From contig NZ_AP023212.1 in the NCBI RefSeq assembly GCF_016593255.1, positions 2,086,001-2,150,000 of the forward strand: a DNA stretch of 64,000 nt, in the 5' to 3' direction. Under the pieces are notes generated by a model. That model did no database searches, had not been told where the DNA came from, and saw nothing but the letters and a program-made list of their open reading frames with translations. The stretch comes from Hydrogenimonas urashimensis. Lineage in GTDB: Bacteria > Campylobacterota > Campylobacteria > Campylobacterales > Hydrogenimonadaceae. Position 1 is the stretch's first letter; each line of letters opens with the position of its first letter. Shown here piece after piece: positions 21,879-39,776 of this stretch. A program made the position numbers and the translations under genes.

Positions 21879-22152
21879 TATAGGGCACTTCTAAAAACCC
21901 ATGCCCGCCATAGAAGGCAAAGAGAACATCAGATTTCGTAGAAGGTCGACGAAGGGCTCCCCGAAGGTAACTCGAGGAGAGCTTCTACGAAAGATGGCAC
22001 TCTATTTGCCTTCCCTGCGGGCTTTGCAAGCTTTCACGCAGCCGGCGTTGCCGCTCCTTGAATTGGCTTTGGCCAGTCCTGCGTCGCGGTGCCTTGTCTG
22101 CGCAAAAGCTTGCAAAGCTATGGCGGGCATGGGTTTTTAGAAGTGCCCTATA
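21879..22152. mobile_element. MITE-like element with perfect 35-bp terminal inverted repeats
   Basis: The arms 21879-21913 and 22118-22152 are exact reverse complements over 35 bp, including a flanking TA on each side. TA duplication is typical of IS630/Tc1 elements and some IS5-family (IS427-group) elements. The interior is nested. 21934-21944 pairs with 21982-21992. GAAGGCAAA near 21914 pairs with TTTGCCTTC near 22007. GCTTTGCAAGCTTT near 22019 pairs with the AAAGCTTGCAAAGC just inside the right arm. As RNA it would fold into a multi-arm structure. No transposase is encoded. The right end supplies the stop codon of the adjacent RND pump gene. Confidence 0.8.
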
Positions 22153-25100
22153 AACTTTCTTCTATCTTCCTCTTTGCATACATCTGATAGAGAATCGGGA
22201 TGATCAGCAGACTCAGCACCGCCGAGCTGACGATACCGCCGATCATCGGGGCGGCGATGCGCTGCATCACTTCGCTGCCCACACCGTGGTGGTACATGAT
22301 GGGAAGCAGGCCCGCGAGGATGGCGAAGACCGTCATCAGTTTGGGTCGCACCCGCTGCACCGCGCCTTCGAAGATCGCCGCTTTGAGGGTTTGCCGGGTC
22401 AGTTCGCCGTCGCGTGCCAACCGTTCTTCCACGCTTTCCTGCAGGTAGACGATCATGACGATCGCCGTCTCCGCCGCAACGCCCAGTAGTGCCAGGAAAC
22501 CGACGATGACGGCGACACTCATGTTGAAGTTCAGCCAATCGATGTAGAGCAGGCCGCCCAGCATCGCAAACGGCAGGGTGAAAAAGACGATCAGCGTCGG
22601 CACCACCTTCTTGAGCGCGAAATAGATGAGCACCAGAATCACCAGCAGCACCGTCGGGGCGATCCACTTGATCCGCTCCATCGCGCTCTGGAGGTACTCC
22701 GACTGCCCCGCCCATTCGTAGTAGTAGCCCACCGGCAGCTTCAGACCTCTAAGCGCTTTTTGCGCCTGTCGTTGGTATTCGGCGGCGCTGATGCCCTCTT
22801 TGGGGGTGATGTAGATGAAGGTGACCGGTTTGGCCATTTCGGTCTTGATGACCGAGGCGCTCTCCTGGTAGTACACCTTCGCCAGGTGGCCTAGGGGGAC
22901 GAAGCCTAACGGTGTTTTGATCTGGATGTTCCGTATTACCTCCAAGTCGCGGCGGTCTTCCTCTTCGAAACGCACGGCGATGGGATAGCGCTCCAGTCCG
23001 TGGATCATCGTCGAAACGCGCTTACCCCCGATGGCGCTTTGGGTGTAGGCAAGGACCTCCTCTTTGGAGATGCCATACCTCGCGATCGCCGCCTCGTCGA
23101 TGTCGATGTCGATGAAATAGCCCGCGTCCGACTGGTCGGCGAAGACGGACATCGTGGTATCCAGGCTTCGCAGTTTTGTTTCGATCGTCTGGCCGATGTG
23201 TTGCAATGTTTTAATATCATCACCATAGAGCTTGATGCCAAGCGGCGTGCGGATACCGCTGAGCAGCATATCTATACGTCCTCGGATCGGATAGGTCCAG
23301 GAGTTGACGAGGCCGGGGATTTGCAGCGCATCTTCGAGTTCCTGGCGCAATTTGTCGAAGGTCATTCCTTCGCGCCACTGCTCTTTTGGCTTGAAGGTGA
23401 TGATGGTCTCCAGCATCCCCAAGGGTGCTGGGTCGGTGGCGGTGTCGGCACGTCCCCCTTTGCCGAAGACCGTCTGAACTTCCGGGAAGCTCTTGATGAT
23501 CTTGTCGGTTTTCTGGGTGATCTGCTTGCTCAAGTCGACGCTGATGCCATAGGGAGTGACGGGCATGTACATCAACGTCTGTTCGTTCAGCGGCGGCATG
23601 AACTCCCATTTGAGTTTTTCATAGACGGGCACCATCCAGACCAGCAGCATGAGGGCGGCGAGGATGACGAGGTATTTGAGTTTCATGCCAAACGTCAGCA
23701 GCGGATGGTAGAGCCAGATGAAAAAGCGGTTGATCGGGTTTTTGTTTTCGCTGGGAATCTTCCCGCGGACGAACCAGACCATCAGCACCGGCACCAGTGT
23801 CACCGCCAGCACCGCCCCTACCGTCATCGCGAAGGTTTTCGTGAAAGCCAGCGGCGAAAAGAGCAGCCCCTCCTGCCCCAAGAGCGCGAAGATGGGCAGA
23901 AAGGAGACCACTACCAGCGCCAGGGCGAAGAAGATAGGGCGTCCTACGGTTTTGGCGGCGGAGAGGATGGCGGCTTTTCGTTCCGCCGGTGTGATGGATC
24001 CTTTTTGCGCTTCGATTTTGTGAATCGCCTTGTGAGCGTTTTCGATCATCACGATGCTGGCGTCGACCATGGCGCCGATGGCGATGGCGATACCGCCCAG
24101 GCTCATGATGTTGCTACCGATGCCGAAAAGTTTCATCAACAAAAAAGTCAGCCCCACCGTCAGCGGAAGGACGATCAGGACGATGAGTGAACTGCGCAGG
24201 TGCACCAGAAAGAGCGCGATCACGGCGATGACGATGAGGCTCTCCTCGACCAGCGTGCTTTTGAGGGTCTCGAGCGCCTTTTCGATGAGGCTGCTTCGGT
24301 CGTACGTTTCGACGATCTCCACCCCCTCCGGGCGGATCTCTTCGAGCCGCTTTTTGACATTCTGGATGACGCGGTAGGCGTCTTCGCCATATCTGACCAT
24401 GACGATACCGCCCACCACTTCGCCCTGGCCGTTGAGATCGGCCACGCCACGACGGGGGGCCGGCAGCACCTCCACCCGGCCGATATCTGCGATGGTCACC
24501 GGTACACCGACATGCTGCGCCACCACCAGTTTTCGGATATCCTCCGCGTTTTTGAGATACCCTCTTGCCTGCACCATCCATTCGTAGCCGTTCTGGATGA
24601 CGATACGCCCGCCGGTGTCGTTGTTGTTGGCCCGGATGGCGCGGGTAACGTCGGCGATGGAGAGGTTGTGAGAAACCAGCGCGTCGTTGTCGACCGTCAC
24701 CTGCCAGGTCGGTACGAAACCGCCGACGCTGGCGACGTCGCTGACACCGTCGACACCCATCAGGGCGTATTTGAGGGTGTAGTCCTGCAAAGTGCGCAGC
24801 TGGGCCAAGTTTTTCGTCTTCGAAACCAGCGCATATTCGTAGACCCATCCCACACCGGAAGCATCGGGCCCCAAATAGACTTCGACCCCCTGCGGCAAAG
24901 CACTCTGAATCGCCGCCAACTGTTCCAGCACCCGGCTGCGTCCCCAGTAGAGGTCGGTGCCCTCTTTGAAGATAATGTAGATGAGGGCGTTTTCGTAGGT
25001 CGAAAAGCCGCGCACCGTCTCGATGTCGGCGATGGAGAGAAATTTGCTCACCAGCGGATAGGTGGCCTGCTCCTCGATGATGTTGGGGCTCTGGCCCTTC

Positions 25101-25258
25101 CACTTCACTTCGACGATCACCTGGGGCGGCGAAAGGTCGGGTAGGGCATCCAGCGGCGTATGGCGCACCGCCCAGATCGAGGCGCCGACGGCGAAAAGGG
25201 TCGCCATCAGGATCAAAAAGGCGTTTTTAACGCTAAAATCGATAATTTTTTCAATCAT
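22148..25258 (-). CDS. cusA: CusA-type Cu(I)/Ag(I) RND efflux pump
   Basis: A 1036-residue heavy-metal RND pump. The TM4 signature GAMVDASIVMIENAH is the Cu/Ag (HME4) form. The three methionines that bind Cu/Ag in E. coli CusA are conserved in context: LMYMP, APLGMLE and RIDMLLSG. It should therefore export Cu(I)/Ag(I) from periplasm or cytoplasm through the adaptor and TolC-like partners encoded upstream. It overlaps the adaptor gene by 4 bp. The TAG stop (22148-22150) lies in the terminal inverted repeat of the MITE-like element. Without the insertion the frame would run about 22 more codons, so the C-terminus may be slightly trimmed. Confidence 0.94.
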   Translation of the reverse strand: MIEKIIDFSVKNAFLILMATLFAVGASIWAVRHTPLDALPDLSPPQVIVEVKWKGQSPNIIEEQATYPLVSKFLSIADIETVRGFSTYENALIYIIFKEGTDLYWGRSRVLEQLAAIQSALPQGVEVYLGPDASGVGWVYEYALVSKTKNLAQLRTLQDYTLKYALMGVDGVSDVASVGGFVPTWQVTVDNDALVSHNLSIADVTRAIRANNNDTGGRIVIQNGYEWMVQARGYLKNAEDIRKLVVAQHVGVPVTIADIGRVEVLPAPRRGVADLNGQGEVVGGIVMVRYGEDAYRVIQNVKKRLEEIRPEGVEIVETYDRSSLIEKALETLKSTLVEESLIVIAVIALFLVHLRSSLIVLIVLPLTVGLTFLLMKLFGIGSNIMSLGGIAIAIGAMVDASIVMIENAHKAIHKIEAQKGSITPAERKAAILSAAKTVGRPIFFALALVVVSFLPIFALLGQEGLLFSPLAFTKTFAMTVGAVLAVTLVPVLMVWFVRGKIPSENKNPINRFFIWLYHPLLTFGMKLKYLVILAALMLLVWMVPVYEKLKWEFMPPLNEQTLMYMPVTPYGISVDLSKQITQKTDKIIKSFPEVQTVFGKGGRADTATDPAPLGMLETIITFKPKEQWREGMTFDKLRQELEDALQIPGLVNSWTYPIRGRIDMLLSGIRTPLGIKLYGDDIKTLQHIGQTIETKLRSLDTTMSVFADQSDAGYFIDIDIDEAAIARYGISKEEVLAYTQSAIGGKRVSTMIHGLERYPIAVRFEEEDRRDLEVIRNIQIKTPLGFVPLGHLAKVYYQESASVIKTEMAKPVTFIYITPKEGISAAEYQRQAQKALRGLKLPVGYYYEWAGQSEYLQSAMERIKWIAPTVLLVILVLIYFALKKVVPTLIVFFTLPFAMLGGLLYIDWLNFNMSVAVIVGFLALLGVAAETAIVMIVYLQESVEERLARDGELTRQTLKAAIFEGAVQRVRPKLMTVFAILAGLLPIMYHHGVGSEVMQRIAAPMIGGIVSSAVLSLLIIPILYQMYAKRKIEESL

Positions 25259-26256
25259 TGGAACAACCCGTTGATCTGCGCGTCACTGTCAATCAGGAAA
25301 AGGGCTTTGTTGACCACTTCGTCCCCCTCTTTCACACCAGAAAGGATAGCGAACCGATCGTGATCGATGGGGCGCACCGTCACCTCGACGGGTTCGTACT
25401 CCCCTTCGAACTCCCCGGCTTTGAAGACGAACCACCGCCCCATTTTGCGTATCACGGCGGTTCTGGGCAGTACCAGCACCGTTTTGGGGGCCGTTTCGGC
25501 ACGGACGGTGGCGAACATACCCGGAATCAACCTCTTTTCAGGGTTGGCCACATCCAGCCGCACCGTCGCGAGCGCCGTTTCGGGCTCGATGCGCGGATAG
25601 AGATAGGGGTGTTTTCCCACGAAGGTCTTGGGCAGGCTCCGGGTGGTGATGCGAAAGCTTTTGGCCTGCATCACCGGCACGATGTCGGATTCGCTCACTT
25701 TGGCTTCGACGCGAATGCGCGAGAGCCCCACAATGCGAAAGAGCGGCGATTTGGATTTGAAGGCGCCACCTTCGAGGATATGCTTTTCGAAAAGATAGCC
25801 GTTGGCCGGTGCATAGATCTGCGTCAGCGGGTCGGCCTTGCGGTGGCGCTTCACCCGGTCGATTTCGGATTTGGAAACGCCAAGCAGTTGCAGTTTGCGT
25901 CTGGCACTGGCGACCATCCCCCTGGCCGGCGCTTTTTTGGCGTAGCGCAGGGCGTTTAGGTACTCTTCCTTGGCTTTGAAGACAGCCGGTGCATAGACTT
26001 TGGCGAGAGGTTCGCCCCGTTTGACGGGTGCATAGAGGCTCTTTTTGTAAAGCTTCACCACATAGCCGTCGAATCTCGGCGATACGTTGACGATTCGCTC
26101 TTCGTCGGCGACGAAGAGGCCGTAGAAGGTTTTGGAAAATCGGATCGTCTCTTTTTTCACCTGCGTCGTTTGGACATTGAAAAGCTGCTCCACGCTCGGC
26201 TGTTCGGCCAGCAGCGACAGGGGCAACAGCAAGGTTCCTATCAGCCATTTTTTCAT
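25255..26256 (-). CDS. cusB: CusB-like RND periplasmic adaptor
   Basis: A 333-residue membrane fusion protein with a signal peptide (about 1-17, LLAEQ). A barrel-sandwich domain includes VNVSPRFDGYVVKLY and YAPVKRGEPLAKVYAP. A helical section, a beta-barrel with IEPETALATVRLDVANPEKRLIPGMFATV, and a membrane-proximal domain follow. It sits between the TolC-like and CusA genes with 4-bp overlaps on both sides. Copper/silver specificity is inferred from the pump. Confidence 0.88.
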   Translation of the reverse strand: MKKWLIGTLLLPLSLLAEQPSVEQLFNVQTTQVKKETIRFSKTFYGLFVADEERIVNVSPRFDGYVVKLYKKSLYAPVKRGEPLAKVYAPAVFKAKEEYLNALRYAKKAPARGMVASARRKLQLLGVSKSEIDRVKRHRKADPLTQIYAPANGYLFEKHILEGGAFKSKSPLFRIVGLSRIRVEAKVSESDIVPVMQAKSFRITTRSLPKTFVGKHPYLYPRIEPETALATVRLDVANPEKRLIPGMFATVRAETAPKTVLVLPRTAVIRKMGRWFVFKAGEFEGEYEPVEVTVRPIDHDRFAILSGVKEGDEVVNKALFLIDSDAQINGLFQ

Positions 26257-27458
26257 CGTTTTTCTCCCAAAGTGGCGTCGATTTGCGCCACGGTACGGTA
26301 GTAGTCGGCCTTCGCTTCGATCATTTGCGCCTGAAGATTCAGCTTCTGTTCGACAAGGTCGACGAATTTATACAGATCACCGCCGGCGGCGATGTCGGAG
26401 CGGATCAGATCGAACATATGGTCGATCTTCGGGAGGCTCTCTTTTTCTATGAGCCGTGCCACTTCCGATGCGCTCCGGGCTTTGGCGTGGAGTTTTTCCA
26501 GTTCGGCCAGCAGTTTTTGGCGGGTATCGATCACCTCGCTTTGTCGTGCCAGAAGTCTGGCTCGCCGCTCCTCGACGATACTTCGTTCCGTTCCGTAGAT
26601 GGGCAGGGCGAAACCGACCCCGACGGAGAGGTAGTCTTCGTAGGATTCGCGGTGATAGTAGCCCACTTTGACGACCGGATCGATGGCGGTACGAAGTTTG
26701 TCGAAAGCCAACCTTTTGTCGACGATCGCTTTCTGGGCGATTCGGGTTTGCAGGTCGGGACTGCGATCGATGCGTTTTATCAGTCTGTCGAGGCTCGGTA
26801 GCGCTTTTTGGGGCAGGTCGATGCGCAGATCGTCGATTTTTTGAAAAGCCAGGTACGACAGCAGCGCCAGACGCTTCGAACGCTCGGCACGCAGCTTCGC
26901 AAGCGTTACGCGCAGGCGGGTGAGCACCAGCTCGGCCGACATGATGCCCATATGGGCTTTGCCCGATTCGCCCGATGCGGTGTAGGCTTCGTAAAGATCG
27001 ACGTTTTGGCGCGTCAGTGCCATCGTCTTTTTCGTCAAATCGATAAGGCGGTCGATTTTCCACAGATCGTACGCCGTTTGTCGGATGCGTGACACCAGCA
27101 CCGCTTCCGCCGCCTCTTTCGTGGCAAACAGCATGGCCTTCTTCGCCGCTTCGATCGCCTCTTTCGCGTCACGCTTGCCGAACCACGGAAACTTCTGGGT
27201 GATCGTGACGGCCTGGGTCTGCATCGGCTCCAAAGAGCGGTTGGTGAAGTCGTCGAGGCGAAGATTGTTGACGGAGAGTCCCAGCAGAGGATTGTCGAAA
27301 TTTTTCGCCCGCTTCAGCGCATAGTCGCTGGCGGCGATGCGCTCTTCGATGGCTTGCAGGCTCGGGTGCTTCGCCAATGCCGAATCGATGAGCTGCCGCA
27401 ACGTCGTTGCCTCCGCGAAAAGGGCGAAAAGCAGCCAGAATAGAAGCGGTCGCATCAT
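26253..27458 (-). CDS. CusC/TolC-family outer-membrane efflux protein
   Basis: A 401-residue outer-membrane factor. A signal peptide (about 1-17) precedes LRQLIDSALAKHPSLQAI, the usual start of the first OEP repeat. Two long helical repeats and a C-terminal QLNLQAQMIEAKADYYRTVAQIDA-type end follow. It provides the outer-membrane channel for the Cus-type pump. It ends 4 bp inside the adaptor gene and begins 4 nt after the FixH-like gene's stop. Confidence 0.85.
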   Translation of the reverse strand: MMRPLLFWLLFALFAEATTLRQLIDSALAKHPSLQAIEERIAASDYALKRAKNFDNPLLGLSVNNLRLDDFTNRSLEPMQTQAVTITQKFPWFGKRDAKEAIEAAKKAMLFATKEAAEAVLVSRIRQTAYDLWKIDRLIDLTKKTMALTRQNVDLYEAYTASGESGKAHMGIMSAELVLTRLRVTLAKLRAERSKRLALLSYLAFQKIDDLRIDLPQKALPSLDRLIKRIDRSPDLQTRIAQKAIVDKRLAFDKLRTAIDPVVKVGYYHRESYEDYLSVGVGFALPIYGTERSIVEERRARLLARQSEVIDTRQKLLAELEKLHAKARSASEVARLIEKESLPKIDHMFDLIRSDIAAGGDLYKFVDLVEQKLNLQAQMIEAKADYYRTVAQIDATLGEKR

Positions 27459-27462
27459 TGGC

Positions 27463-27852
27463 CTACAGATTCAGAGAGGTTTTGAGGCGATACTTCTTGC
27501 TCGCCGGTGTGGTGATAAAGATATGCACCTGCCAGGTACCGCCCATCGCGGCGTTGAAGGTGGCTTCATACGTACCGCCTCCTGTTGGTTTGGCGATGGT
27601 TTTGCTCTCCATGTAGGGCATGCCCGGCATGGCGGGCATGAAGATTTTCAGTGCCACTTTGGCGTTTTGAAGGGGTTTTCCGCTTTTGAGAACTTCGAGT
27701 TTCAAGTGGTTGTTTCCCACCGTCAGCGGCTTGTCGGAAATCATTACCACTTTCATCGACCGGTATTTCACCTCTTTTTGAAAAGCTGCCGCATGGAGGG
27801 TTATGGCCGCTGCTACCATGGCGACGAGCACCGTTTTGATTTTGTTTTGCAT
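27463..27852 (-). CDS. Exported FixH/YtkA-like protein heading the Cus operon
   Basis: A 129-residue protein. A signal peptide (about 1-22, LHAAA) precedes a beta-sandwich resembling FixH/YtkA domains: LKLEVLKSGKPLQNAKVALKIFMPAMPGMPYM near 45-76, then GTYEATFNAAMGGTWQVHI. Met-rich MPAMPGMPYM is a plausible Cu(I) site. The start at 27852 has AAAGGA 7 nt upstream. It opens the reverse-strand operon with the CusC, CusB and CusA homologues, divergent from copA. Function as a periplasmic copper-binding accessory is inferred. Confidence 0.78.
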   Translation of the reverse strand: MQNKIKTVLVAMVAAAITLHAAAFQKEVKYRSMKVVMISDKPLTVGNNHLKLEVLKSGKPLQNAKVALKIFMPAMPGMPYMESKTIAKPTGGGTYEATFNAAMGGTWQVHIFITTPASKKYRLKTSLNL

Positions 27853-27886: not shown

Positions 27887-27942
27887 ATTGTAAGGATTGG
27901 ACGTGCAAAGAGTGTGGAATGGATGTACACACATCTTCCACA
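27887..27942. promoter_or_regulatory. Divergent promoter/operator region between the Cus operon and copAB
   Basis: A reverse-strand TACAAT (27887-27892) lies 34 nt before the FixH-like start. An inverted repeat TGTGGAA (27913-27919) and TTCCACA (27936-27942), centres 23 nt apart, lies between it and copA. It may be the operator of a shared copper-responsive regulator. No known copper-box consensus was recognised. Confidence 0.35.
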
Positions 27943-27986
27943 TAATCTGGATAACATTGCAAATAATCACGTACAGGAGTCAATCG

Positions 27987-29729
27987 ATGTCGAAAATGAC
28001 AAGAAGAACCTTTTTGCAAAGTGCTGCCGTGGCGACACTCTTATATGGCGTGTCTCCGACACGCTCTCTCGCCGATGGTGGAGAGAATGATGGGATCGGT
28101 GCCACCACAGGCAGCCCTTCGATCCTGAAGGGCAACACGTTTCACCTGACCATCGACCGGACGGTCGTGAACATCACCGGCAAACCCGCCATCGCCACGA
28201 CGGTCAATGGGACGATGCCCGGGCCCACGCTGGTATGGCGGGAAGGGGAAGAGGTTACGATCCACGTCACCAACCGCCTGCCCGTCTCCACCTCCATCCA
28301 CTGGCACGGCATCATCCTGCCGCCGGAGATGGACGGGGTTCCCGACATCAGTTTCGACGGGATCGCACCGGGTGAAACCTTCACCTACTGTTTCAAGGTA
28401 AAGCAGCACGGCACCTACTGGTACCACTCCCACAGCGGATTCCAGGAGCAGACCGGGCTGCATGGAGCGTTGGTCATTCTTCCACGAAATCCCGGTGACG
28501 AACCCTTCGAATACGACCGGGACTATGTGATTGCCCTTTCGGACTGGAGCGACGAAAAGCCCGAATCGATCTATCGGAAACTCAAAATCCAGAGCGACTA
28601 CTACAACTTCAACCAGCGAACCGTCGGAGACTTCTTTCACGAAGTGGCCGAAAAAGGGTTCGTCGAAGCCTTCAAAGCCCGTAAGATGTGGAACGAGATG
28701 CGTATGAGTGATAGGGATCTCTCCGACGTCACCGCCTACACCTATACCTTTTTGATGAACGGCCGCACCGATGCCCAGGATTGGCACGCCCTTTTCAGAC
28801 CCGGCGAAAAGGTGCGGCTGCGCTTCATCAACCAATCGGCGATGACCATCTTCGACGTGCGCATTCCTGGGCTGAAAATGCGCGTCGTGGCAGCCGACGG
28901 CAACCCGGTGCAGCCGGTGGATGTGGAGGAATTCCGTATCGCCGTGGCGGAGAGTTACGATGTCATCGTCGAACCCGAAGAGGGGAGCTACTGCCTCTTC
29001 GCCCAGAGCATCGACCGCTCGGGATTTGTCGGGGGCACCCTTTCGAGTCGAAACGGCGTCCGGGCGAAACGGCCCCCGATGGAGAAGCCGCAATCCTTGA
29101 CGATGGCGGACATGGGCATGGGTGGCTGGAGATCCACCGGCGGCATGAGCCATGAAACGATGAAGATGGACCATGGGAAGATGAAGATGGATATGCCCCA
29201 CAAAACCCCGTGGCCCGTCACGCCGCTGCCGATGCGAAAAGGGGTCGCATGGACGATGACGGCGATGGATCCCCGCTACCGCCTGGACGACCCGGGCGTG
29301 GGGCTGCGCCACAACGGGCGGCGGGTGCTCACCTACGCCGACTTGCGCAACTACCGCTCCACCGCCGACGACCCGAAGCCCGACCGGGAGATCGTGCTGC
29401 ACCTGACGGGCAATATGGAGCGCTACATCTGGGCGATCAACGGCATCAAATACGCCGACGCCCAGCCGCTGCGATTTCACTACGGCGAGCGGCTGCGCAT
29501 CACCTTCATCAACGATACGATGATGCCCCACCCGATGCACCTGCACGGTATGTGGAGCGACCTGGAGACCGGAGACGATACCCGACTGGTTCGCAAACAT
29601 ACGGTCCTTGTCCAACCTGGGGCGAAAATCAGCTATCGCGTCACCGTCGACGCCCGAGGGAGCTGGGCTTACCACTGCCACATGCTCTACCACATGCTCG
29701 GCATGTTCAGAAAAGTGGAGGTGGTGTGA
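27987..29729 (+). CDS. copA: CopA-type multicopper oxidase
   Basis: A 580-residue three-domain multicopper oxidase with a Tat signal (TRRTFLQ near residues 5-11). The copper-ligand motifs are all present: HWHGI, YWYHSH, HPMHLHGMW, and HCHMLYHMLGMF at the C-terminus for the type 1 site. A Met/His-rich insertion near residues 370-410 (MADMGMGGW, then MSHETMKMDHGKMKMDM) is typical of CopA and probably binds Cu(I). The enzyme oxidises Cu(I) to the less toxic Cu(II) in the periplasm. CAGGAG 7 nt upstream fixes the ATG at 27987. It is coupled to the CopB gene by TGATG. Confidence 0.95.
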   Translation: MSKMTRRTFLQSAAVATLLYGVSPTRSLADGGENDGIGATTGSPSILKGNTFHLTIDRTVVNITGKPAIATTVNGTMPGPTLVWREGEEVTIHVTNRLPVSTSIHWHGIILPPEMDGVPDISFDGIAPGETFTYCFKVKQHGTYWYHSHSGFQEQTGLHGALVILPRNPGDEPFEYDRDYVIALSDWSDEKPESIYRKLKIQSDYYNFNQRTVGDFFHEVAEKGFVEAFKARKMWNEMRMSDRDLSDVTAYTYTFLMNGRTDAQDWHALFRPGEKVRLRFINQSAMTIFDVRIPGLKMRVVAADGNPVQPVDVEEFRIAVAESYDVIVEPEEGSYCLFAQSIDRSGFVGGTLSSRNGVRAKRPPMEKPQSLTMADMGMGGWRSTGGMSHETMKMDHGKMKMDMPHKTPWPVTPLPMRKGVAWTMTAMDPRYRLDDPGVGLRHNGRRVLTYADLRNYRSTADDPKPDREIVLHLTGNMERYIWAINGIKYADAQPLRFHYGERLRITFINDTMMPHPMHLHGMWSDLETGDDTRLVRKHTVLVQPGAKISYRVTVDARGSWAYHCHMLYHMLGMFRKVEVV

Positions 29730-32390: not shown

Positions 32391-34373
32391 TTACGCTTTT
32401 TTTAGCAGTTGGGCGTTGAGTGCTACGACGACGGTGCTGACAGACATCAAAATCGCGCCGACGGCGGGGTCGATGATGACGCCCCACGGGGCCATGACGC
32501 CGGCGGCCAGGGGTATCGCTACGATATTGTAGCCGCTCGCCCACCAGAGGTTCTGCACCATCTTTTTCGTCGTGGCCAGCGAGAGTCTGATGGCGTGAAC
32601 CACGCTCATCAGATCGCTTTGGGTCAGGATGATGTCGGCACTTTCGATGGCGATATCGGTCCCGGCACCGATGGCGATGCCGATATCGGCCGTCAGGAGT
32701 GATGGGGCGTCGTTGATACCGTCTCCCACCATGGCGACGGTTTTGCCATCCTGTTGAATCTTACGAATCAACCGCAGCTTCTCGTCTGGCAGAAGATTGG
32801 CCCGGTAGTGGTCGATACCGCATGTTTCGGCCACTTCACGTGCCACGGCTTCGTTGTCACCGGTGAGCATCCACGTTTCGATACCCAGTTCTTTCAATGC
32901 GGCGATTGCCTCGACAGAGGTTTCGCGGATGGAATCGGTCAGGAGAATGACTCCGATGACTTCGCCGTCAACGGCCACCCAAACCTTCGTCGATTCGCTC
33001 GATTCGAAGGATTTCAAGGTCTCGGGAAGCTTCAGAGACTCTTTGGAAAGAAGCTGCGGTCCGCCCACCATAACGGTATGACCCTGGACGCTCGCTTTGG
33101 CTCCGATGCCCGGAAATGCCATGAAATTTTCGGCTGTTTGGGGTGTGATACCCGCCTCCTTGGCGTGATTCACGATCGCTTTTGCGATGATGTGCTCGGA
33201 ATTTTGTTCGATTGCCGCGGCCATTGCCAGCAGCTTTGATTTGTCATCTTTTGCGATCACATCCGAAACATCCAGCCGCCCTTCGGTGATTGTTCCGGTT
33301 TTGTCGAAACAGATGGCATCGATGGTGCGCAGTGTTTCGAACGCCTGGCGGTTTCTGATCAGAATTCCCCGTTTGGCTGCCAAAGAAGTCGATATGGCCA
33401 CGACCAGTGGGACTGCCAGCCCCAGTGCATGGGGGCAGGCGATAATGAGAACAGTGACACTCCTAAGCACCGCATCCATCGGTGATGCGATCGCGGACCA
33501 TACAGCGAAGGTGACGGCACCCGTACCGACAGCCCCGTAAAAAAGCCATCCCGCTGCCTTGTTGGCGAGATCTTGTGTTTTGGATCTGCTCGACTGCGCC
33601 TCTTTGACCAATTCGATGACCTGGGAGAGATAACTCTCTTTGCCGCTCTTGGTGATCGTGATACGCATAGCCCCGTCGAGGTTGGTGCTTCCCATGAAGA
33701 CATCGCTGCCCACTTTTTTGTAAACGGGTTTTGATTCGCCGGTCAGGAAGGCTTCGTCGGTCATGCTTTCGCCTTCGACGACCCGACCGTCGGCCGGAAT
33801 TTTTTCGCCGGGGCGCACCAGTATCGTATCACCTTTGTGCAGAACGTCCACACTTACCTCTTTGAGCGTACCGTCCGGTGAGACACGCATGGCGGTTTTG
33901 GGCATCATTTTGACCAGATCCTGCAATGCGTTGGCGGCTCCCAGTACGCTTTTGGCTTCGATATAGTGGCCGATCAGCATAATGTCGATCAGGGTCGCCA
34001 GTTCCCAGAAGAACTCTTTGCCGCCCGGCATGACGAGTGACATGGCCGAATAGAAGTAGGCGACACTGATTGCCATTGAAATAAGCGTCATCATGCCGGG
34101 TTTTTTGGATTTGATCTCTTCGATCGTCATGGAAAGAAAAGGTTTGCCGCCATAGATATAGACGAATGTCGAAAGGATGAAGATGATCGCTTCGCGATAG
34201 GGAATCTGGAGAGAGAAACCGAACCACCCCTGGATCATAGGCGAAAGGACAAGTATCGGGACGGTGACGATGACCGAGACGATGAACCTCCGTTTCATCT
34301 CTTCCATATGGTGTCTATGGCCCATCGCAGAGTGGGAAGAATGTTTCCCTGTAGCATGTTCTTCTTGTCGCAT
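32391..34373 (-). CDS. Copper-translocating P1B-type ATPase with CPH motif (CopB/P1B-3)
   Basis: A 660-residue heavy-metal P-type ATPase. A short His-rich N-terminus (about 5-22: HATGKHSSHSAMGHRHH) replaces the usual HMA domain. TM6 carries ACPHALG, the CPH motif of the P1B-3 subgroup linked to Cu(II)/Cu(I) export. The phosphorylation site DKTGT, the TGES loop and GDGINDAP are present. It should pump copper from the cytoplasm to the periplasm, where CopA, the Cus pump and the cysteine-rich peptide can act. AAGGA lies 6 nt before the ATG. It is divergent from the RiPP operon and leads the CopZ-like gene. Confidence 0.93.
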   Translation of the reverse strand: MRQEEHATGKHSSHSAMGHRHHMEEMKRRFIVSVIVTVPILVLSPMIQGWFGFSLQIPYREAIIFILSTFVYIYGGKPFLSMTIEEIKSKKPGMMTLISMAISVAYFYSAMSLVMPGGKEFFWELATLIDIMLIGHYIEAKSVLGAANALQDLVKMMPKTAMRVSPDGTLKEVSVDVLHKGDTILVRPGEKIPADGRVVEGESMTDEAFLTGESKPVYKKVGSDVFMGSTNLDGAMRITITKSGKESYLSQVIELVKEAQSSRSKTQDLANKAAGWLFYGAVGTGAVTFAVWSAIASPMDAVLRSVTVLIIACPHALGLAVPLVVAISTSLAAKRGILIRNRQAFETLRTIDAICFDKTGTITEGRLDVSDVIAKDDKSKLLAMAAAIEQNSEHIIAKAIVNHAKEAGITPQTAENFMAFPGIGAKASVQGHTVMVGGPQLLSKESLKLPETLKSFESSESTKVWVAVDGEVIGVILLTDSIRETSVEAIAALKELGIETWMLTGDNEAVAREVAETCGIDHYRANLLPDEKLRLIRKIQQDGKTVAMVGDGINDAPSLLTADIGIAIGAGTDIAIESADIILTQSDLMSVVHAIRLSLATTKKMVQNLWWASGYNIVAIPLAAGVMAPWGVIIDPAVGAILMSVSTVVVALNAQLLKKA

Positions 34374-34402: not shown

Positions 34403-34473
34403 AGTATAGAAAAGGAGTGTGTAAAAAATATGGAAACTTCTTGCACATTGGTTACACAATAAGCGCCTACAAT
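34403..34473. promoter_or_regulatory. Divergent promoters of the copper ATPase and the RiPP operon
   Basis: A reverse-strand TATACT (34403-34408) serves the ATPase, and a forward TACAAT (34468-34473) serves the peptide operon. Between them GTGTAA (34419-34424) and TTACAC (34452-34457) form an inverted repeat; the second half occupies the -35 region of the peptide promoter. This fits activator control, perhaps by the response regulator encoded at the end of the same cluster (inference). Confidence 0.4.
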
Positions 34474-34501
34474 TGCACTATCTCAAAACGAAGGATTGAA
34501 A

Positions 34502-34792
34502 ATGAAAAAGAGAGCGATGGGCCGAAACAGAGCGATGGCGGTCATTATGGGCGCCATGGCGGCCGGAACGAGCGGAGCTGTCGCCGCGCCAGGGGGCTGC
34601 GGTACCGGTAAATGTGGCAGCGGCATGAAAGGCGGCGGTACCGAAATGAACCAGAGCGTTCAGGGTAGATGTGGCGCCAAAATGGGTGAAGAAGCCAAAA
34701 AAAAGGCAATGAGAGGCAAATGTGGCTCCGAAATGAAAAAAAATATGACGAGTCAAGATGGTACCGCCAAATGCGGAAGCTCCATGAAATAG
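34502..34792 (+). CDS. hvfA: HvfA/bufferin-like RiPP metallophore precursor peptide
   Basis: A 96-residue precursor. Residues 1-29 form a signal peptide (VIMGAMAAGTSGAVAA). The mature part is Gly, Lys and Met rich and holds five cysteines, each in a G/A-x-C-G motif: GGCG (Cys33), GKCG (38), GRCG (57), GKCG (74) and AKCG (91). In Haemophilus HvfA the cysteines of EGKCG motifs are converted to oxazolone/thioamide groups that bind Cu(I). The two following genes encode the matching MNIO oxidase and its partner, which makes the assignment firm. GAAGGA lies 6 nt before the ATG. Modification at each Cys is inference. Confidence 0.85.
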   Translation: MKKRAMGRNRAMAVIMGAMAAGTSGAVAAPGGCGTGKCGSGMKGGGTEMNQSVQGRCGAKMGEEAKKKAMRGKCGSEMKKNMTSQDGTAKCGSSMK

Positions 34793-34805
34793 AAGGAAAT
34801 CTCGG

Positions 34806-35606
34806 ATGAAAGGGTGCGGTCTGGGGCTTCGTGATACGTTCGCCGATGAGATTGTGAAGTATGCGGACGTGATCGATTTTCTTGAGGTGGTGCCGGAAAA
34901 CGCGATGCACATGAACCGTATCGAGGCAAAACGCTTCGAATCCATCCGGGAAAGGTTCGAGATGGTCGCCCACGGTCTTTCCCTTTCACTGGGCGATACG
35001 ATCCATCTGAACGAAGCGCATCTTGCACGACTGAAGGATTTTCTCGATCGTTACGAGATCGCTCTTTACTCGGAACACCTGAGTTTCACTTCTCTGGATG
35101 GGGTGCAGAGCTATGAACTGCTTCCCTTGCCGATGACTTCGGAGATGGTGGATGGCATTGTCGCCAAGATCGACTACGTCCAGGAGTTTCTGCAGCGTCC
35201 GCTCGTGATCGAAAACCCGACCTACTATACGGTACTCGAATCGACAATGGAAGAAGCGGAATTTACAGTGGAGATTTTGCGGCGCAGCGGAGCAAAACTG
35301 CTGCTGGATGTCAACAACGTCTATGTGAATGCCCACAACCATCGGTTCAATGCGGAGGATTTTTTGGACCGTCTACCCATATCCGAAGTTGCCTACTGTC
35401 ACGTCGCCGGCCACCTGGAGTATCGGGATGACCTTTTCATCGATACCCACGGCACACCTGTCAAAACGGAGGTGTGGGATCTGTTGCGTCAGGTGATGGC
35501 GCGAAAAAGAGTGCCCGTCATGCTTGAGCGCGATCACAACATACCGCCGTTGGACGCACTGATGAAAGAGTTTGCCACGATGAAGGAGATACATGATGGC
35601 GTATGA
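34806..35606 (+). CDS. hvfB: DUF692 MNIO-family RiPP peptide oxidase (HvfB/BufB/MbnB-like)
   Basis: A 266-residue TIM-barrel protein of the multinuclear non-haem iron oxidative (MNIO, DUF692) family. It opens GCGLGLRDTFADEIV and keeps the metal-ligand pattern: SEHLSF, IENPTYY, LDVNNVYVNAHNH, CHVAGHLEY, DTHG and LERDHN. MbnB, HvfB and BufB oxidise cysteine side chains of precursor peptides with O2 to make oxazolone/thioamide or thiooxazole groups. It lies 13 nt after the precursor, with AAGGAA upstream, and overlaps the partner gene by 11-14 bp. The substrate is almost certainly the preceding Cys-motif peptide. Confidence 0.92.
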   Translation: MKGCGLGLRDTFADEIVKYADVIDFLEVVPENAMHMNRIEAKRFESIRERFEMVAHGLSLSLGDTIHLNEAHLARLKDFLDRYEIALYSEHLSFTSLDGVQSYELLPLPMTSEMVDGIVAKIDYVQEFLQRPLVIENPTYYTVLESTMEEAEFTVEILRRSGAKLLLDVNNVYVNAHNHRFNAEDFLDRLPISEVAYCHVAGHLEYRDDLFIDTHGTPVKTEVWDLLRQVMARKRVPVMLERDHNIPPLDALMKEFATMKEIHDGV

Positions 35607-36261
35607 GACGATGCAGCGCTTTTTCGAAGCTATCAGAGAAGGGAGGGCGGCGGAGTATCGGCATGGCGATATCTACGAACAGCTTGTCCGGTACCGTTTC
35701 GATGAAGCGCTTGGAAGCACCTTCCCCCGTTTTCGGTCCCGTATCGGCGAGGCTCGGTGGACAAAACTGCTGCGTCGGTTTATCGCTTCCGGTTCGGCGC
35801 ACTCCCCATTTGTTTGGCAGATGGCTTCAGATTTCAGACAATCCGTCCAAAAAGGTATAGACCGGCCGCTGCGGCATCTGCTTTGGTTCGAATGGCAGGA
35901 AGTGGCCCTGACACGCCTGACTATGCCCAAACGGCGGAAAATCGCAAAAGTCGATTTTTCGAAACGTTACCGTCTGGGCAAACGAGCCAGACTGAAAAAG
36001 CTCGTCTGTGATGTGTCCGATGAAGACAATCGGCAGATCGGGGTCTACTGGACACTGGTGTGGCAGACTTTTTCCGGTGAAAGTGCCTGGATGCGCCTGA
36101 CACCCTTCATGGGCGAGCTGCTCGCTGCATGCGATGGCAAAAATCGTCTCGGGAAAACGGTTGGAACGATATCCCCGAGATTTCGTATCCGACCGGGTGA
36201 TGCCCGCGATATTCTCAAAGAGGGATTGTTGCCGCTGCTGGCATCGAATATCGTCGTTTGA
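35596..36261 (+). CDS. hvfC: DUF2063 RiPP maturation partner (HvfC/BufC/MbnC-like)
   Basis: A 221-residue protein. The N-terminal DUF2063 DNA-binding-like domain (about 5-100) includes YRFDEALGSTFPRFRSRIG and FVWQMASDF. A C-terminal winged-helix-like region ends REGLLPLLASNIVV-like. In MbnC, HvfC and BufC this protein holds the precursor and docks it on the MNIO oxidase. Two adjacent ATGs exist at 35593 and 35596; AAGGAG spacing favours 35596. It overlaps the oxidase gene, so the two are translationally coupled and probably form a heterodimer. Confidence 0.88.
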   Translation: MAYETMQRFFEAIREGRAAEYRHGDIYEQLVRYRFDEALGSTFPRFRSRIGEARWTKLLRRFIASGSAHSPFVWQMASDFRQSVQKGIDRPLRHLLWFEWQEVALTRLTMPKRRKIAKVDFSKRYRLGKRARLKKLVCDVSDEDNRQIGVYWTLVWQTFSGESAWMRLTPFMGELLAACDGKNRLGKTVGTISPRFRIRPGDARDILKEGLLPLLASNIVV

Positions 36262-36263
36262 GG

Positions 36264-36269
36264 TATAAT
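36264..36269 (+). promoter_or_regulatory. -10 box giving a probable leaderless response-regulator mRNA
   Basis: TATAAT begins 2 nt after the HvfC-like stop and ends 6 nt before the regulator ATG. Transcription would begin at the A of the start codon. Confidence 0.5.
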
Positions 36270-36275
36270 GAATCC

Positions 36276-36932
36276 ATGAAAGTTCTGCTGCTTGAAGATG
36301 ATACCATGCTGGGCGAGCTGATCGCCGACCATCTTGGCGGAATGGGTCATGAAGTGGAGCATTATGTCGATGGTGAGGAGGCGGAGGAGGCAATTTTGCA
36401 AGGCCGTTACGATCTGCTGCTTCTGGATGTCAATGTCCCAGGTATCGACGGATTCGAACTGCTCGCTTCGATGCGTGAACGCAAAGATATGACGTCGGCG
36501 GTTATGATTACGTCGCGCAATACCAGTGCCGATTTGAAAGAGGGTTTTGACCTCGGTTGCGACGACTACATCAAAAAACCTTTCGAATTTGCCGAACTCG
36601 ATGCCCGAATCGAACATATCGTACGAATCTACGGTCTGAGAAAGAGTGAACCGATTGCTTTGGGTGGCGATACCTTTTTCGAACCGGCTGCCCACCGCCT
36701 TGTAGTCGCCGGAGAAGCGGTACCGCTGACCCCCAAAGCTTCCGAAATCCTTCACTACCTCTACAAAAACGCCGGGCGCATTGTCTCCCGGGAGGAGCTG
36801 GTCGGGAGCCTTTGGGCTTACGATGAGTCGCCTTCTGATGCGACGCTTCGAAGCTACATCAAAACCCTGCGCAAGTATGTCTCCAACATCGTGACGGAAA
36901 GGGGGGTGGGCTATGGCTTTGAACCCGGATGA
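36276..36932 (+). CDS. OmpR-family response regulator of the copper/RiPP cluster
   Basis: A 218-residue regulator. The receiver has acidic residues EDD at 7-9, phospho-acceptor Asp51 in LLLLDVNVP, TSRN and IKKPF. The C-terminal winged helix (about 120-215) ends ERGVGYGF. The start at 36276 is taken because MKVLLLEDD is the usual N-terminus; there is no ribosome-binding site, but a -10 lies 6 nt upstream. It overlaps the sensor kinase gene by 20 bp. By position it probably controls the peptide operon and neighbouring copper genes, like CusR/CopR (inference). Confidence 0.92.
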   Translation: MKVLLLEDDTMLGELIADHLGGMGHEVEHYVDGEEAEEAILQGRYDLLLLDVNVPGIDGFELLASMRERKDMTSAVMITSRNTSADLKEGFDLGCDDYIKKPFEFAELDARIEHIVRIYGLRKSEPIALGGDTFFEPAAHRLVVAGEAVPLTPKASEILHYLYKNAGRIVSREELVGSLWAYDESPSDATLRSYIKTLRKYVSNIVTERGVGYGFEPG

Positions 36933-38076
36933 GAGACGTTCGCTTTTTCGCTTTATGAGCGTCTACCTGGGTGCGGGGCTGGTCATCGTCGTAACTTTCT
37001 CCTTTCTTTTCTATCGGATCGATTCCGAATCGATCCGAGACCGGACGCTCTCTGGTCTTCGCATGACGGCGATGACGATTTCCGCTTCTGCCGTAGCGGC
37101 CCAGATGCAGGGCAAACCTTTTAAAATTCCCGAAACGTCCTGCTGTGAATACCTTCTGCTGGATGGTTCGAAAAAGCCCATTGTCGGTTCTCTTTCGGAA
37201 CCTTTCGATCTAAAGAGAGAGTTTTACGTACAAAACGGGTGCGCCCACTATATCGACCGCAGCGCCCACGGCCATATGAATATCGAATATATCGTATTAC
37301 GAGACTGCACCTACGGAGAAAAGATCCGAAACTGCGCCCTTCGTGTTATCGTCATGGGGTTGGCGGCCTACCTTTTCCTGGTACTGGTGGGATGGTACCT
37401 GGGGCGACTGTTTCTCAAGCCGATGCGCGAAAAGATCGAGGCGATGGATCGCTTCATCAAAGACAGTACCCACGAACTCAACACACCCGTCACCACCATG
37501 CTTCTGGCTCTTCAGAAGATCGAGTCCAAAGAGTGCAAACCGGTCTATCTGAAAGCACTGCAGATGAGCGGCCGGCTGATCGCACGTGTCTACGAAGATC
37601 TGACTTTCATGCTGCTGCAGGACAAACGTGTGAAGAAGGATCATCTCCGGAATGTCGATGTCGCGAACGTGGTGAAAGAGAGTGTCGAATTCTTTTCAAT
37701 CCTGGCCGAACGGAAAAGCATCGACGTGGAACTGCAGACGGAGACCTGTTACGTCGAAGCCGATCCCCACCATCTGGCACTGCTTGTCAAAAACCTGCTG
37801 GACAATGCGCTCAAATATACCCGAAGCGGCGGAAGAGTGGAGATACGCCTCGAGGCGTGCCGGTTGAGAGTCAGCGATTCCGGAAGCGGCATTCCCCATG
37901 ACAAACTGCAGGATATCTTCCGGCGTTTTCACAGAGAAAACCGTGTGGAAGGGGGGTTCGGCATCGGGCTCAGTATCGTTGAAAGCATCTGCCGGATGTA
38001 TGGCTACCATATCGACGTGGTTTCGGAAGTGGGGAGAGGAAGCACCTTCACCGTCCAATTCGCTCGGGTGTCATAA
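36913..38076 (+). CDS. Membrane histidine kinase with Cys/His-rich periplasmic sensor
   Basis: A 387-residue sensor kinase. Transmembrane helices lie at about 16-34 and 144-164, flanking a periplasmic domain of about 110 residues. That domain has unusual metal-ligand potential: Cys77-Cys78, Cys110, His112, His119, His121-Met122, Cys132 and Cys141. The phospho-acceptor is His187 in DSTHELNTPV, and the ATPase domain has DNALKY, DSGSGIP and GGFGIGLSI. There is no HAMP domain; a short linker joins TM2 to the dimerisation helix. Sensing of Cu(I) or thiol state by the loop is inference from residues and context. Confidence 0.9.
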   Translation: MALNPDERRSLFRFMSVYLGAGLVIVVTFSFLFYRIDSESIRDRTLSGLRMTAMTISASAVAAQMQGKPFKIPETSCCEYLLLDGSKKPIVGSLSEPFDLKREFYVQNGCAHYIDRSAHGHMNIEYIVLRDCTYGEKIRNCALRVIVMGLAAYLFLVLVGWYLGRLFLKPMREKIEAMDRFIKDSTHELNTPVTTMLLALQKIESKECKPVYLKALQMSGRLIARVYEDLTFMLLQDKRVKKDHLRNVDVANVVKESVEFFSILAERKSIDVELQTETCYVEADPHHLALLVKNLLDNALKYTRSGGRVEIRLEACRLRVSDSGSGIPHDKLQDIFRRFHRENRVEGGFGIGLSIVESICRMYGYHIDVVSEVGRGSTFTVQFARVS

Positions 38077-38099: not shown

Positions 38100-38672
38100 T
38101 CAATTCGACGCTTTTTTGTCGGGGAAGCTTTTGAATACCTTTGTAACCACCTGTTTGATAAAAGCTTCTCTCTCTTCGGGGGTTTTGAATCTTTTTAGCT
38201 TGTCGGTCATCTTGGCGTTCCAGAAAACTAGGTTGTCATGATGCGGATCGATGGCTTCGACGATGATTTTCCCTTCGCTCACTTCATAGGACTGGGTCGA
38301 TTTGCCGACGACGTAACTGTATCCGTAATTTCCGTAATAGGGGCTGTAATAGGTCGGAGCGATACCGATGATTCGGTAATCGTTGGAGAGCTGCCGCTGG
38401 TTGGTAGCGCCCAGATGGTAGGTGATGTAAAAGTCGGCATGGGCTTTGTCAGTGACCTCGTATCCTTTTTTCTTCATCGTTTCGGCGATGAGACGATCGA
38501 AGATTTTCTGCGCGCTTGTGGTTCTGGGATCGTCGATGGTGGGGTGGATAACGGCTACGCTTTGGAGTTTGCTGAAATCGTAGGTTTCATCTTTTTTGCT
38601 CTCAAGCGTGTGGCTGGAGCAACCGGCGAACAGGACGAGTGTCACAACAAGGGCTGCGATAGTGCGTATCAT
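38100..38672 (-). CDS. DUF4136 lipoprotein (copy 1)
   Basis: A 190-residue lipoprotein with lipobox LFAGC (Cys18). The DUF4136 domain opens YDFSKLQSVAV and contains KKGYEVTDKAHADFYITYH, a Tyr/Gly-rich stretch and a C-terminal helix around TPEEREAFIKQVVTKVFKSFP. The function is unknown; the family is envelope-associated. AAGGAG precedes the ATG. It is the last of three tandem paralogues, starting at the nucleotide adjoining the previous gene's stop. Confidence 0.85.
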   Translation of the reverse strand: MIRTIAALVVTLVLFAGCSSHTLESKKDETYDFSKLQSVAVIHPTIDDPRTTSAQKIFDRLIAETMKKKGYEVTDKAHADFYITYHLGATNQRQLSNDYRIIGIAPTYYSPYYGNYGYSYVVGKSTQSYEVSEGKIIVEAIDPHHDNLVFWNAKMTDKLKRFKTPEEREAFIKQVVTKVFKSFPDKKASN

Positions 38673-39236
38673 CTATTTTTCTCCTTTGGATGGTTGGTTT
38701 TCGGGCGGAAAATGCTTCAAAACTTCGGCGACGATGTGTCGGATGTACTCTATCCGCTCCTGTGGCGTGTCGAAATCCTTGAGCCGGTCGGTCGCCATAC
38801 CGCGCCAGAAAATTCTGTTGCCTTCGGGATCGACGGCATCGATGATGAATTTCCCTTCGGTCCAGGTATATTCACGCTCAACGGGTACCGTCATGCCGTA
38901 TCCCCAGTATCCGGGATAGTAGGGGTAGAGTCCCACCATCTGGTAGTCGGTGACGACCTGCCTTTTCTCCGTGACGTCGAGATGGAAAAGAATGTAAAAA
39001 TCGGCATTATCTTTGTCGCTGACGAAGAATCCTTTTTGCCGCATCACATCTTCGATAGCTTTCGCGAAGCGCTGCTGGGCAAGAGAGATCGTGTTGTCAT
39101 CGGATTTGGGGTAGAAGATGGCGACCCGTTCGAGTTTCGAAAAGTCATAGTTGGGGTTGTAATCGCTCGTTACGCGCAGGCTTGAACATCCTGCCAGCCA
39201 GAAAAACAGGACGATCAGCAATGTGTATACCCTCAT
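38673..39236 (-). CDS. DUF4136 lipoprotein (copy 2)
   Basis: A 187-residue lipoprotein with lipobox WLAGC (Cys17). It shares with its neighbours the YDFSKLERVAIFYP opening, KGFFVSDKDNADFYILFHLDV, a Tyr/Gly/Pro-rich segment (MVGLYPYYPGYWGYG), and TPQERIEYIRHIVAEVLKHFPP at the end. It overlaps copy 3 by 4 bp and abuts copy 1. Divergence between copies is high enough to indicate old duplications with separate roles. Confidence 0.85.
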   Translation of the reverse strand: MRVYTLLIVLFFWLAGCSSLRVTSDYNPNYDFSKLERVAIFYPKSDDNTISLAQQRFAKAIEDVMRQKGFFVSDKDNADFYILFHLDVTEKRQVVTDYQMVGLYPYYPGYWGYGMTVPVEREYTWTEGKFIIDAVDPEGNRIFWRGMATDRLKDFDTPQERIEYIRHIVAEVLKHFPPENQPSKGEK

Positions 39237-39772
39237 GGTCTCTTCCTTGTCGGAAAATCTTTCAGCAGCTGATCGACAACCGCGTTGAAGAAGGATTCAC
39301 GGCTTTTGGGGGAGTTGAAATCGGGTATCTTTTTGGCGACTTTGGCGCTCCAGAAAACCTTTTTGTCATTCGGATCGTACATATGGATGCGTATCTCCAC
39401 CTGATCGCTCGAGGGTGTGACGGTTGCCCCCACACTGCCTCCGCCATGATGCCAGCTGTAACTGCCGATGCCGAAACCGAAACTGAAATTCGATGGGACA
39501 TCCTTGACGACATAGACGTCGTAGAGTGCCGTGAAATCTCCCTTGTCGGCATATCGGTATCCTTTTGTCCGCAGATTGCCGACAATGGCGCTGCGGATGC
39601 GCTGTGAGTTGAGCGGGTCGATGTTGGAGCCGGAACTCTCCGACACGCTGAAGGTGGAGAATTTTGAAGCCTCGAAAGAGGGGTCGTAATCGACCGACGG
39701 TCCTTTGCCCGAACAGCCCACGAACGCAAGCAAAAAAAATCCGATAGCAAATGATCGCGCTATTTTCCTCAT
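39233..39772 (-). CDS. DUF4136 lipoprotein (copy 3)
   Basis: A 179-residue lipoprotein with lipobox AFVGC. The DUF4136 core has YDPSFEASKFSTFSVSES, LRTKGYRYADKGDFTALYDVYV, then a Gly/Ser/His-rich loop (FGIGSYSWHHGGGSVG). It ends SPKSRESFFNAVVDQLLKDFP. The start is ATG at 39772; a GTG one codon upstream is possible. It follows the small lipoprotein with almost no gap, so four lipoproteins are made from one transcript. Confidence 0.83.
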   Translation of the reverse strand: MRKIARSFAIGFFLLAFVGCSGKGPSVDYDPSFEASKFSTFSVSESSGSNIDPLNSQRIRSAIVGNLRTKGYRYADKGDFTALYDVYVVKDVPSNFSFGFGIGSYSWHHGGGSVGATVTPSSDQVEIRIHMYDPNDKKVFWSAKVAKKIPDFNSPKSRESFFNAVVDQLLKDFPTRKRP

Positions 39773-39776
39773 CACT

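Follow-up and report, generated by a model that had tools for sequence, protein, structure and literature searches.

Captophorins are thiooxazole metallophores of the MNIO-PME1 kind, and those described include fontiphorin (FonABC), gonophorin and oxazolin (PMC13097082). Among the bufferins Buf1 and Buf2, some are accompanied by an extracytoplasmic function sigma factor, as in gig operons (PMC12452194). Surveys of MNIO clusters describe sigma factors and DoxX, and the term 'two-component' is absent from these three open-access papers (PMC12452194, PMC13097082, PMC12538549). The main text of the Nitratiruptor copper transcriptome study does not mention DUF692, DUF2063 or two-component systems (PMC10092412). 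In Helicobacter pylori, crdA is under a copper two-component system (TCS) (PMC9927306). Here, we describe an operon for a ribosomally synthesised and post-translationally modified peptide (RiPP) in Hydrogenimonas urashimensis, located at 34403-38076 of the window, i.e., the whole 64,000-nt stretch of DNA that was analysed (contig NZ_AP023212.1, positions 2,086,001 to 2,150,000). It is probably a copper-protective MNIO-PME1 RiPP operon under the copper-type TCS of the genus, with an operator shared with copper genes. This reading is based on the shared operator, the copper-type neighbours, the conserved metal ligands, the DoxX gene under the same operator and the conservation across genera. The control layer, operator and TCS together, is apparently undescribed, judged from the open-access literature.

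The five genes form one operon, in the order given by the original prediction:

34502-34792, + strand: RiPP precursor, ATG at 34502 and stop at 34792, 96 aa (sequence)
34806-35606, + strand: MNIO oxidase, PF05114 (DUF692), 266 aa (Pfam, alignments)
35593-36261, + strand: PME-type-1 partner with an N-terminal DUF2063 and a C-terminal domain like a RiPP recognition element (RRE), 222 aa (PF09836, model)
36276-36932, + strand: OmpR/PhoB-type response regulator, RR (PF00072, PF00486)
36913-38076, + strand: sensor histidine kinase, HK (Pfam HATPase_c)

The MNIO gene starts 13 nt past the precursor stop, its reading frame overlaps that of the partner by 14 nt, and the ATG of the RR (36276) lies 14 nt past the partner stop. 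The left edge of the region, 34403, is the outer end of a divergent -10/operator region and not a gene start. In an alignment-based scan of genome contigs, named MNIO relatives at 67-73% were Hydrogenimonas metagenome-assembled genomes (MAGs), which bears out the campylobacterotal origin read from the letters. MNIO genes of this type occur in 26 of 397 Campylobacterota genomes. Below, G000 denotes the window genome, G074, G125, G145 and G199 other Hydrogenimonas genomes, and L numbers extracted loci.

The assignment of the 266-residue protein to DUF692 passed the Pfam check (PF05114, 310 bits, E 1e-92), and it is the sole PF05114 match in the window genome. It aligned to 3BWW (E 1.5e-50), and its metal-ligand columns are invariant across 20 campylobacterotal sequences, so the ligand residues are kept; the conserved positions are H56, H91, E136, D168, N170/N171, H199, H203, D213, H215 and E241. 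Residues N175, D242 and H244 of HvfB (PMC13419390) appear to correspond to its invariant DVNN and DTH motifs. The partner matched PF09836 with 51.9 bits (cut-off 27.2), as expected of the overlapping DUF2063 protein. In its model (pLDDT 90.6), the C-terminal half, unseen by Pfam, folds in an RRE-like manner, and the best fold in the PDB was the PME1 protein 3DEE (TM 0.68/0.74, E 1.1e-8, nearly full length); PqqD and TbiB1, both RRE proteins, matched only weakly and without significance.

As the MNIO is clear-cut and the partner joins DUF2063 to an RRE-like fold matching 3DEE, the cluster is, on sequence and model evidence, an MNIO-PME1 ('captophorin', Buf_EGKCG/oxazolin-like) copper-RiPP operon of a known kind. 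The original prediction had called it HvfABC/bufferin-type. The MNIO, the DUF2063-RRE partner and the exported Cys-Gly peptide agree with that label, but all NCBIfam scores fell below the cut-offs: HvfA 10.1 of 95, HvfB 305 of 360 and HvfC 54.7 of 142 bits, and the MNIO reached 274 bits against the BufB model (cut-off 310). Since these cut-offs were missed and EGKCG is lacking, the cluster was placed in the wider captophorin kind (PMC13097082; PMC12452194) and not in HvfABC or the bufferins.

The locus shares with captophorins the order precursor-MNIO-PME1, a signal-bearing Cys-Gly peptide and the enzyme and partner families, and differs from them in the missing EGKCG 5-mer, the irregular motif spacing, the co-operonic TCS and the separate DoxX locus (PMC13097082). 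Likewise, it resembles the Haemophilus HvfABC/Buf_EGKCG-oxazolin system (PMC12452194, PMC13419390) in its KCG-type cores, signal peptide and DUF2063 partner, HvfB being the best-scoring model for its MNIO, while it stays below the equivalog cut-offs and lacks the 17-residue EGKCG repeats. With Buf1 and Buf2 it has in common the link to copper, export, the MNIO with a DUF2063 partner and DoxX among the genes; unlike them, its precursor has no DUF2282, and TCS control is apparent in place of an adjacent sigma/anti-sigma pair.

The 96-residue precursor contains five Cys, each preceding Gly, in the motifs GGCG, GKCG, GRCG, GKCG and AKCG. This matches the exported peptide with five G/A-x-C-G motifs that had been described; all five Cys fell in Cys-Gly pairs in only 3 of 20,000 shuffles of the precursor. 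The N-terminal signal peptide, MKKRAMGRNRAMAVIMGAMAAGTSGAVAA, was assigned by eye, without a predictor. No EGKCG was found in the 96 residues, and the Pfam search gave neither DUF2282 nor any other match. The signal and the KCG motifs are conserved across the precursors of four Hydrogenimonas relatives. The cores had been taken as distinguishing, which did not hold: campylobacterotal precursors are KCG-rich, most often with GKCGG, GSCGA or GKCGA and also with GKCGS and AKCGA, and in enzyme work variants of the 5-mer were accepted to varying degree (PMC13097082). For the phylum, the window motifs are ordinary, if slightly reduced.

The signal peptides of the four relatives carry NRR-x-AM (NRRKAM), a twin-arginine-like pair, where the window has GRNRAM (34502-34589). 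The G348 MNIO locus (L050) holds a Met/Lys-rich precursor candidate that was missed by the Cys-based search.

The operon is headed by a direct repeat, TTNCACA-N4-TTNCACA, placed 9 nt upstream of a -10-like TANNNT, and this operator occurs at four sites in the window:

34441-34473, + strand: operator and -10 of the RiPP-TCS operon, TTGCACA-N4-TTACACA-N9-TACAAT, 0 mismatches
34403-34435, - strand: divergent operator and -10 (TATACT), toward the copper ATPase, 1 mismatch
27887-27919, - strand: operator and -10 (TACAAT), toward the CrdA-like/RND efflux operon, 1 mismatch
27925-27957, + strand: operator and -10 (TAACAT), toward the multicopper oxidase (MCO), 1 mismatch

The positions of the repeats are 34441 (RiPP), 34418 (ATPase), 27902 (CrdA-like/RND) and 27925 (MCO). 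With at most one mismatch, operator and -10 were found four times in the window and not at all in 60 dinucleotide shuffles; the stronger tests lie outside the window because the pattern was built from these sites. In the whole window genome, six sites had at most one mismatch, and each could be assigned to the start of a gene or operon: RiPP-TCS, ATPase, MCO, CrdA-like/RND, DoxX and a carboxymuconolactone decarboxylase-family protein. At up to two mismatches there were 13 sites, versus two for a reversed-pattern control. The same operator precedes the precursor in G074, G125, L181 and L203. Moreover, among 23 MNIO loci outside the genus, which were not used when building the strict pattern, the strict box was present upstream of eight at up to three mismatches (shuffle mean 0.35, maximum 3), and the period of 11 and the spacer of 9 ranked top among all those tried. 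A relaxed pattern was found at 14 of 26 MNIO loci and included the RiPP locus in all eight further genomes; this is less strict evidence because the pattern was partly fitted to those loci. A simple sigma-70 scan gave no promoter in the operon upstream region, as its rule requires a -35 hexamer. Promoters that depend on an activator often lack this hexamer.

The sixth genomic site (G000:C1:683051-683083; L082 5052-5084, - strand; 1 mismatch) lies just before the carboxymuconolactone decarboxylase-family (AhpD-like) gene, and a box with 0 mismatches precedes its counterpart in G074 (L147). On contig C135 of G199, a genome without MNIO, two more boxes stand before small exported proteins (L149 279-3319), which are possible unrecognised members of a copper regulon.

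The genes that share the operator in the window belong to a copper island, and the copper ATPase and copper oxidase noted beside the cluster were both supported by TIGRFAM matches above the cut-off:

32394-34373, - strand: copper-translocating P-type ATPase, divergent from the RiPP operon (TIGR01511, 619 bits)
27987-29729, + strand: CopA-type MCO with a Tat-like signal (TIGR01480, 788 bits)
27463-27852, - strand: YtkA-family CrdA-like periplasmic protein with the Met motif MPAMPGMPYM (PF13115, 76 bits)
22148-27458, - strand: tripartite efflux system of an outer-membrane protein, a CusB-type adaptor and an AcrB/CusA-type RND pump (PF02321, PF16576, PF00873)

The Met motif reported in H. pylori CrdA is similar to the one in the YtkA-like protein (PMC9182242). 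The island is comparable with the CrdRS - CrdAB-CzcBA system of H. pylori (PMC9927306, PMC12319023, PMC9182242), in which a campylobacterotal TCS is likewise tied to a CrdA-like Met-motif protein and to outer-membrane/adaptor/RND efflux, a likeness judged from context and the Met motif alone; the window regulon differs by the addition of the RiPP, DoxX, ATPase and MCO. That the peptide serves another purpose, e.g., as a secreted uptake metallophore or for another metal, is rather improbable. The host function of Lys-Cys type captophorins is unsettled (PMC13097082), which leaves some room for it, but the operator is common to genes for efflux and oxidation, both of which serve detoxification, and no uptake receptor was noticed in the operon.

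The presence of an RR and an HK behind the DUF2063 partner was confirmed by PF00072, PF00486 and HATPase_c. The original prediction regarded them as dedicated to the peptide, so that a private TCS would have evolved with it and would control nothing else. The two genes are indeed co-directional with the RiPP trio within the same operon, and many other Campylobacterota have TCS genes next to an MNIO cluster, either behind DoxX or divergently upstream. However, RR and HK orthologues are present in all five genus genomes examined, two of which have no MNIO gene, and elsewhere they adjoin copper ATPase or RND genes; in addition, the box precedes ATPase, MCO, RND and DoxX genes. A private system is therefore very unlikely, and the TCS appears to be the genus's own. 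G074 shows the arrangement ATPase <- box -> RR-HK, i.e., the window order minus the RiPP trio, and the short leader AGGTATAATGAAnnCATG before the RR is kept in both. The TCS and the CrdA-like/RND operon point away from each other in G125, G145 and G199, and the box lies between them.

The true TCS orthologues are at G074:C1:597651 and G125:C50:6440. The RR-HK pair that precedes the RiPP by 4-5 kb in G074 and G125 was rejected as the orthologue, as it groups with the own-genome locus L056. The RR-HK pairs behind DoxX in other families were also ruled out as the lineage of the window TCS: their clade (96/93) is distinct from that of the genus (100/99).

In the HK, two transmembrane helices flank a PAS-like periplasmic domain of about 107 residues (model pLDDT 91.2), with a Cys pair (NGC..., R-[DE]-C) that is shared by 6/6 Hydrogenimonas orthologues and by none of the further kinases in the alignment. 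The HK scored 112 bits against TIGR01386 (CusS/heavy-metal sensor kinase; cut-off 292.6). The TCS is very likely of the copper type. The RRs linked to MNIO elsewhere in Campylobacterota fall into at least three clades, so the linkage of TCS and MNIO has more than one origin.

Several results weigh against a copper-protective operon switched by this RR. The precursor has five Cys, versus six to ten in genus relatives, and KCG is found in three motifs only (GKCG twice, AKCG once). The HK sensor model had no significant structural match, PAS 3CWF and CusS 5KU5 being hit only at non-significant E values. In three genomes (G125, G145 and G199), the box next to the TCS points toward the efflux operon, opposite in orientation to the TCS promoter, and outside the genus the RiPP-linked RRs come from other clades although the box is similar. 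The link between RR and box is one of position, and another regulator could own the box. Consequently, an alternative was weighed in which the operator belongs to another regulator or marks a general class of promoters, and the TCS is just a neighbour within the copper island that responds to another signal (silver, nitrosative or redox stress). It fits with the box being kept outside the genus while the linked RR clade changes, and with a report that the regulon of CrdRS, a copper TCS of the campylobacterotal H. pylori, responds to NO (PMC9927306). Even so, the box adjoins the TCS in G074, G125, G145 and G199 and heads the TCS operon in the window, the boxed window genes are all copper-type, and direct repeats spaced by 11 bp are classically bound by OmpR/PhoB-family regulators. 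We consider this alternative unlikely.

The DoxX-like gene, which had been reported as absent, is encoded 86 kb off (PF07681; G000:C1:2034106-2034549) and is preceded by a mismatch-free copy of the RiPP operator. The window genome has only two exact copies, of which one precedes the RiPP precursor and the other lies directly before DoxX. The upstream side of the DoxX locus (RR-HK, rhodanese) shows synteny with the RiPP locus of G074 and G125; in these two genomes the arrangement is operator-precursor-MNIO-PME1-DoxX. In the genome of L203, a second Hydrogenimonas MAG with the gene order of the window, DoxX is apart from the RiPP genes with its own box, and in G199 it stands alone behind a box. 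The shared operator of an unlinked DoxX, and its retention in a genome without MNIO, argue for a role of DoxX alongside the peptide, or in copper stress generally, even when it is distant. With DoxX, the TCS and the cores accounted for, what stands of the proposed distinct variant of the family is the apparently undescribed operator control.

A second TCS near DoxX (L081 3654-5204; G000:C1:2030.6-2032.2 kb) has a kinase nearly without a periplasmic sensor domain. It adjoins dihydroorotase and exbB/exbD-like genes and, in G074, G125 and L181, is retained close to the RiPP locus.

For the copper-protective operon we infer the copper signal, RR-operator binding, Cys oxidation, copper binding and export route as follows. 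Excess periplasmic copper would activate the HK, perhaps through the conserved Cys pair, and the HK would phosphorylate the RR. The RR would then bind the paired 11-bp-spaced TTNCACA repeats, whose end lies exactly 9 nt upstream of the -10, and jointly switch on the copper ATPase, the MCO, the CrdA-like/RND efflux operon, the distant DoxX and the RiPP-TCS operon itself. The DUF2063-RRE partner would bind the peptide and the MNIO would oxidise its five Cys-Gly sites, with an expected product of about -4 Da per Cys carrying thiooxazole-type ligands; the modified peptide would be exported and bind copper in the envelope. The concrete operator, candidate regulator and exact gene list make the peptide's place in the copper-stress response, and its switch, directly testable.

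As the operator faces the TCS without RiPP genes in the sister genome, the three-gene cassette (precursor-MNIO-PME1) appears to be an insertion that separated operator and TCS. In the MNIO tree the window and L203 are joined (97/95) and G074 comes next, whereas the RR, HK and ATPase are nearest to G074 (85, 78 and 85% identity; the RR is 78% identical to L203). The differing histories fit a cassette moved or exchanged between operator-sharing loci, and duplication with differential loss may be the alternative. In a broader view, which we regard as an even call, the captophorin clusters of Campylobacterota would be run by TCSs of several clades converging on a single type of promoter, in which paired 11-bp TTNCACA/CTACACA repeats lie 9 nt upstream of the -10, with the trio moving as a cassette between operator-sharing loci, from operator-trio-DoxX to operator-trio-TCS, and operator-DoxX left behind.

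Three paralogous small lipoproteins are encoded after the HK gene (window 38100-39775, - strand). No operator box was found before them; their homologues adjoin the TCS in G145, G199 and L203, and they may be members of the copper island.

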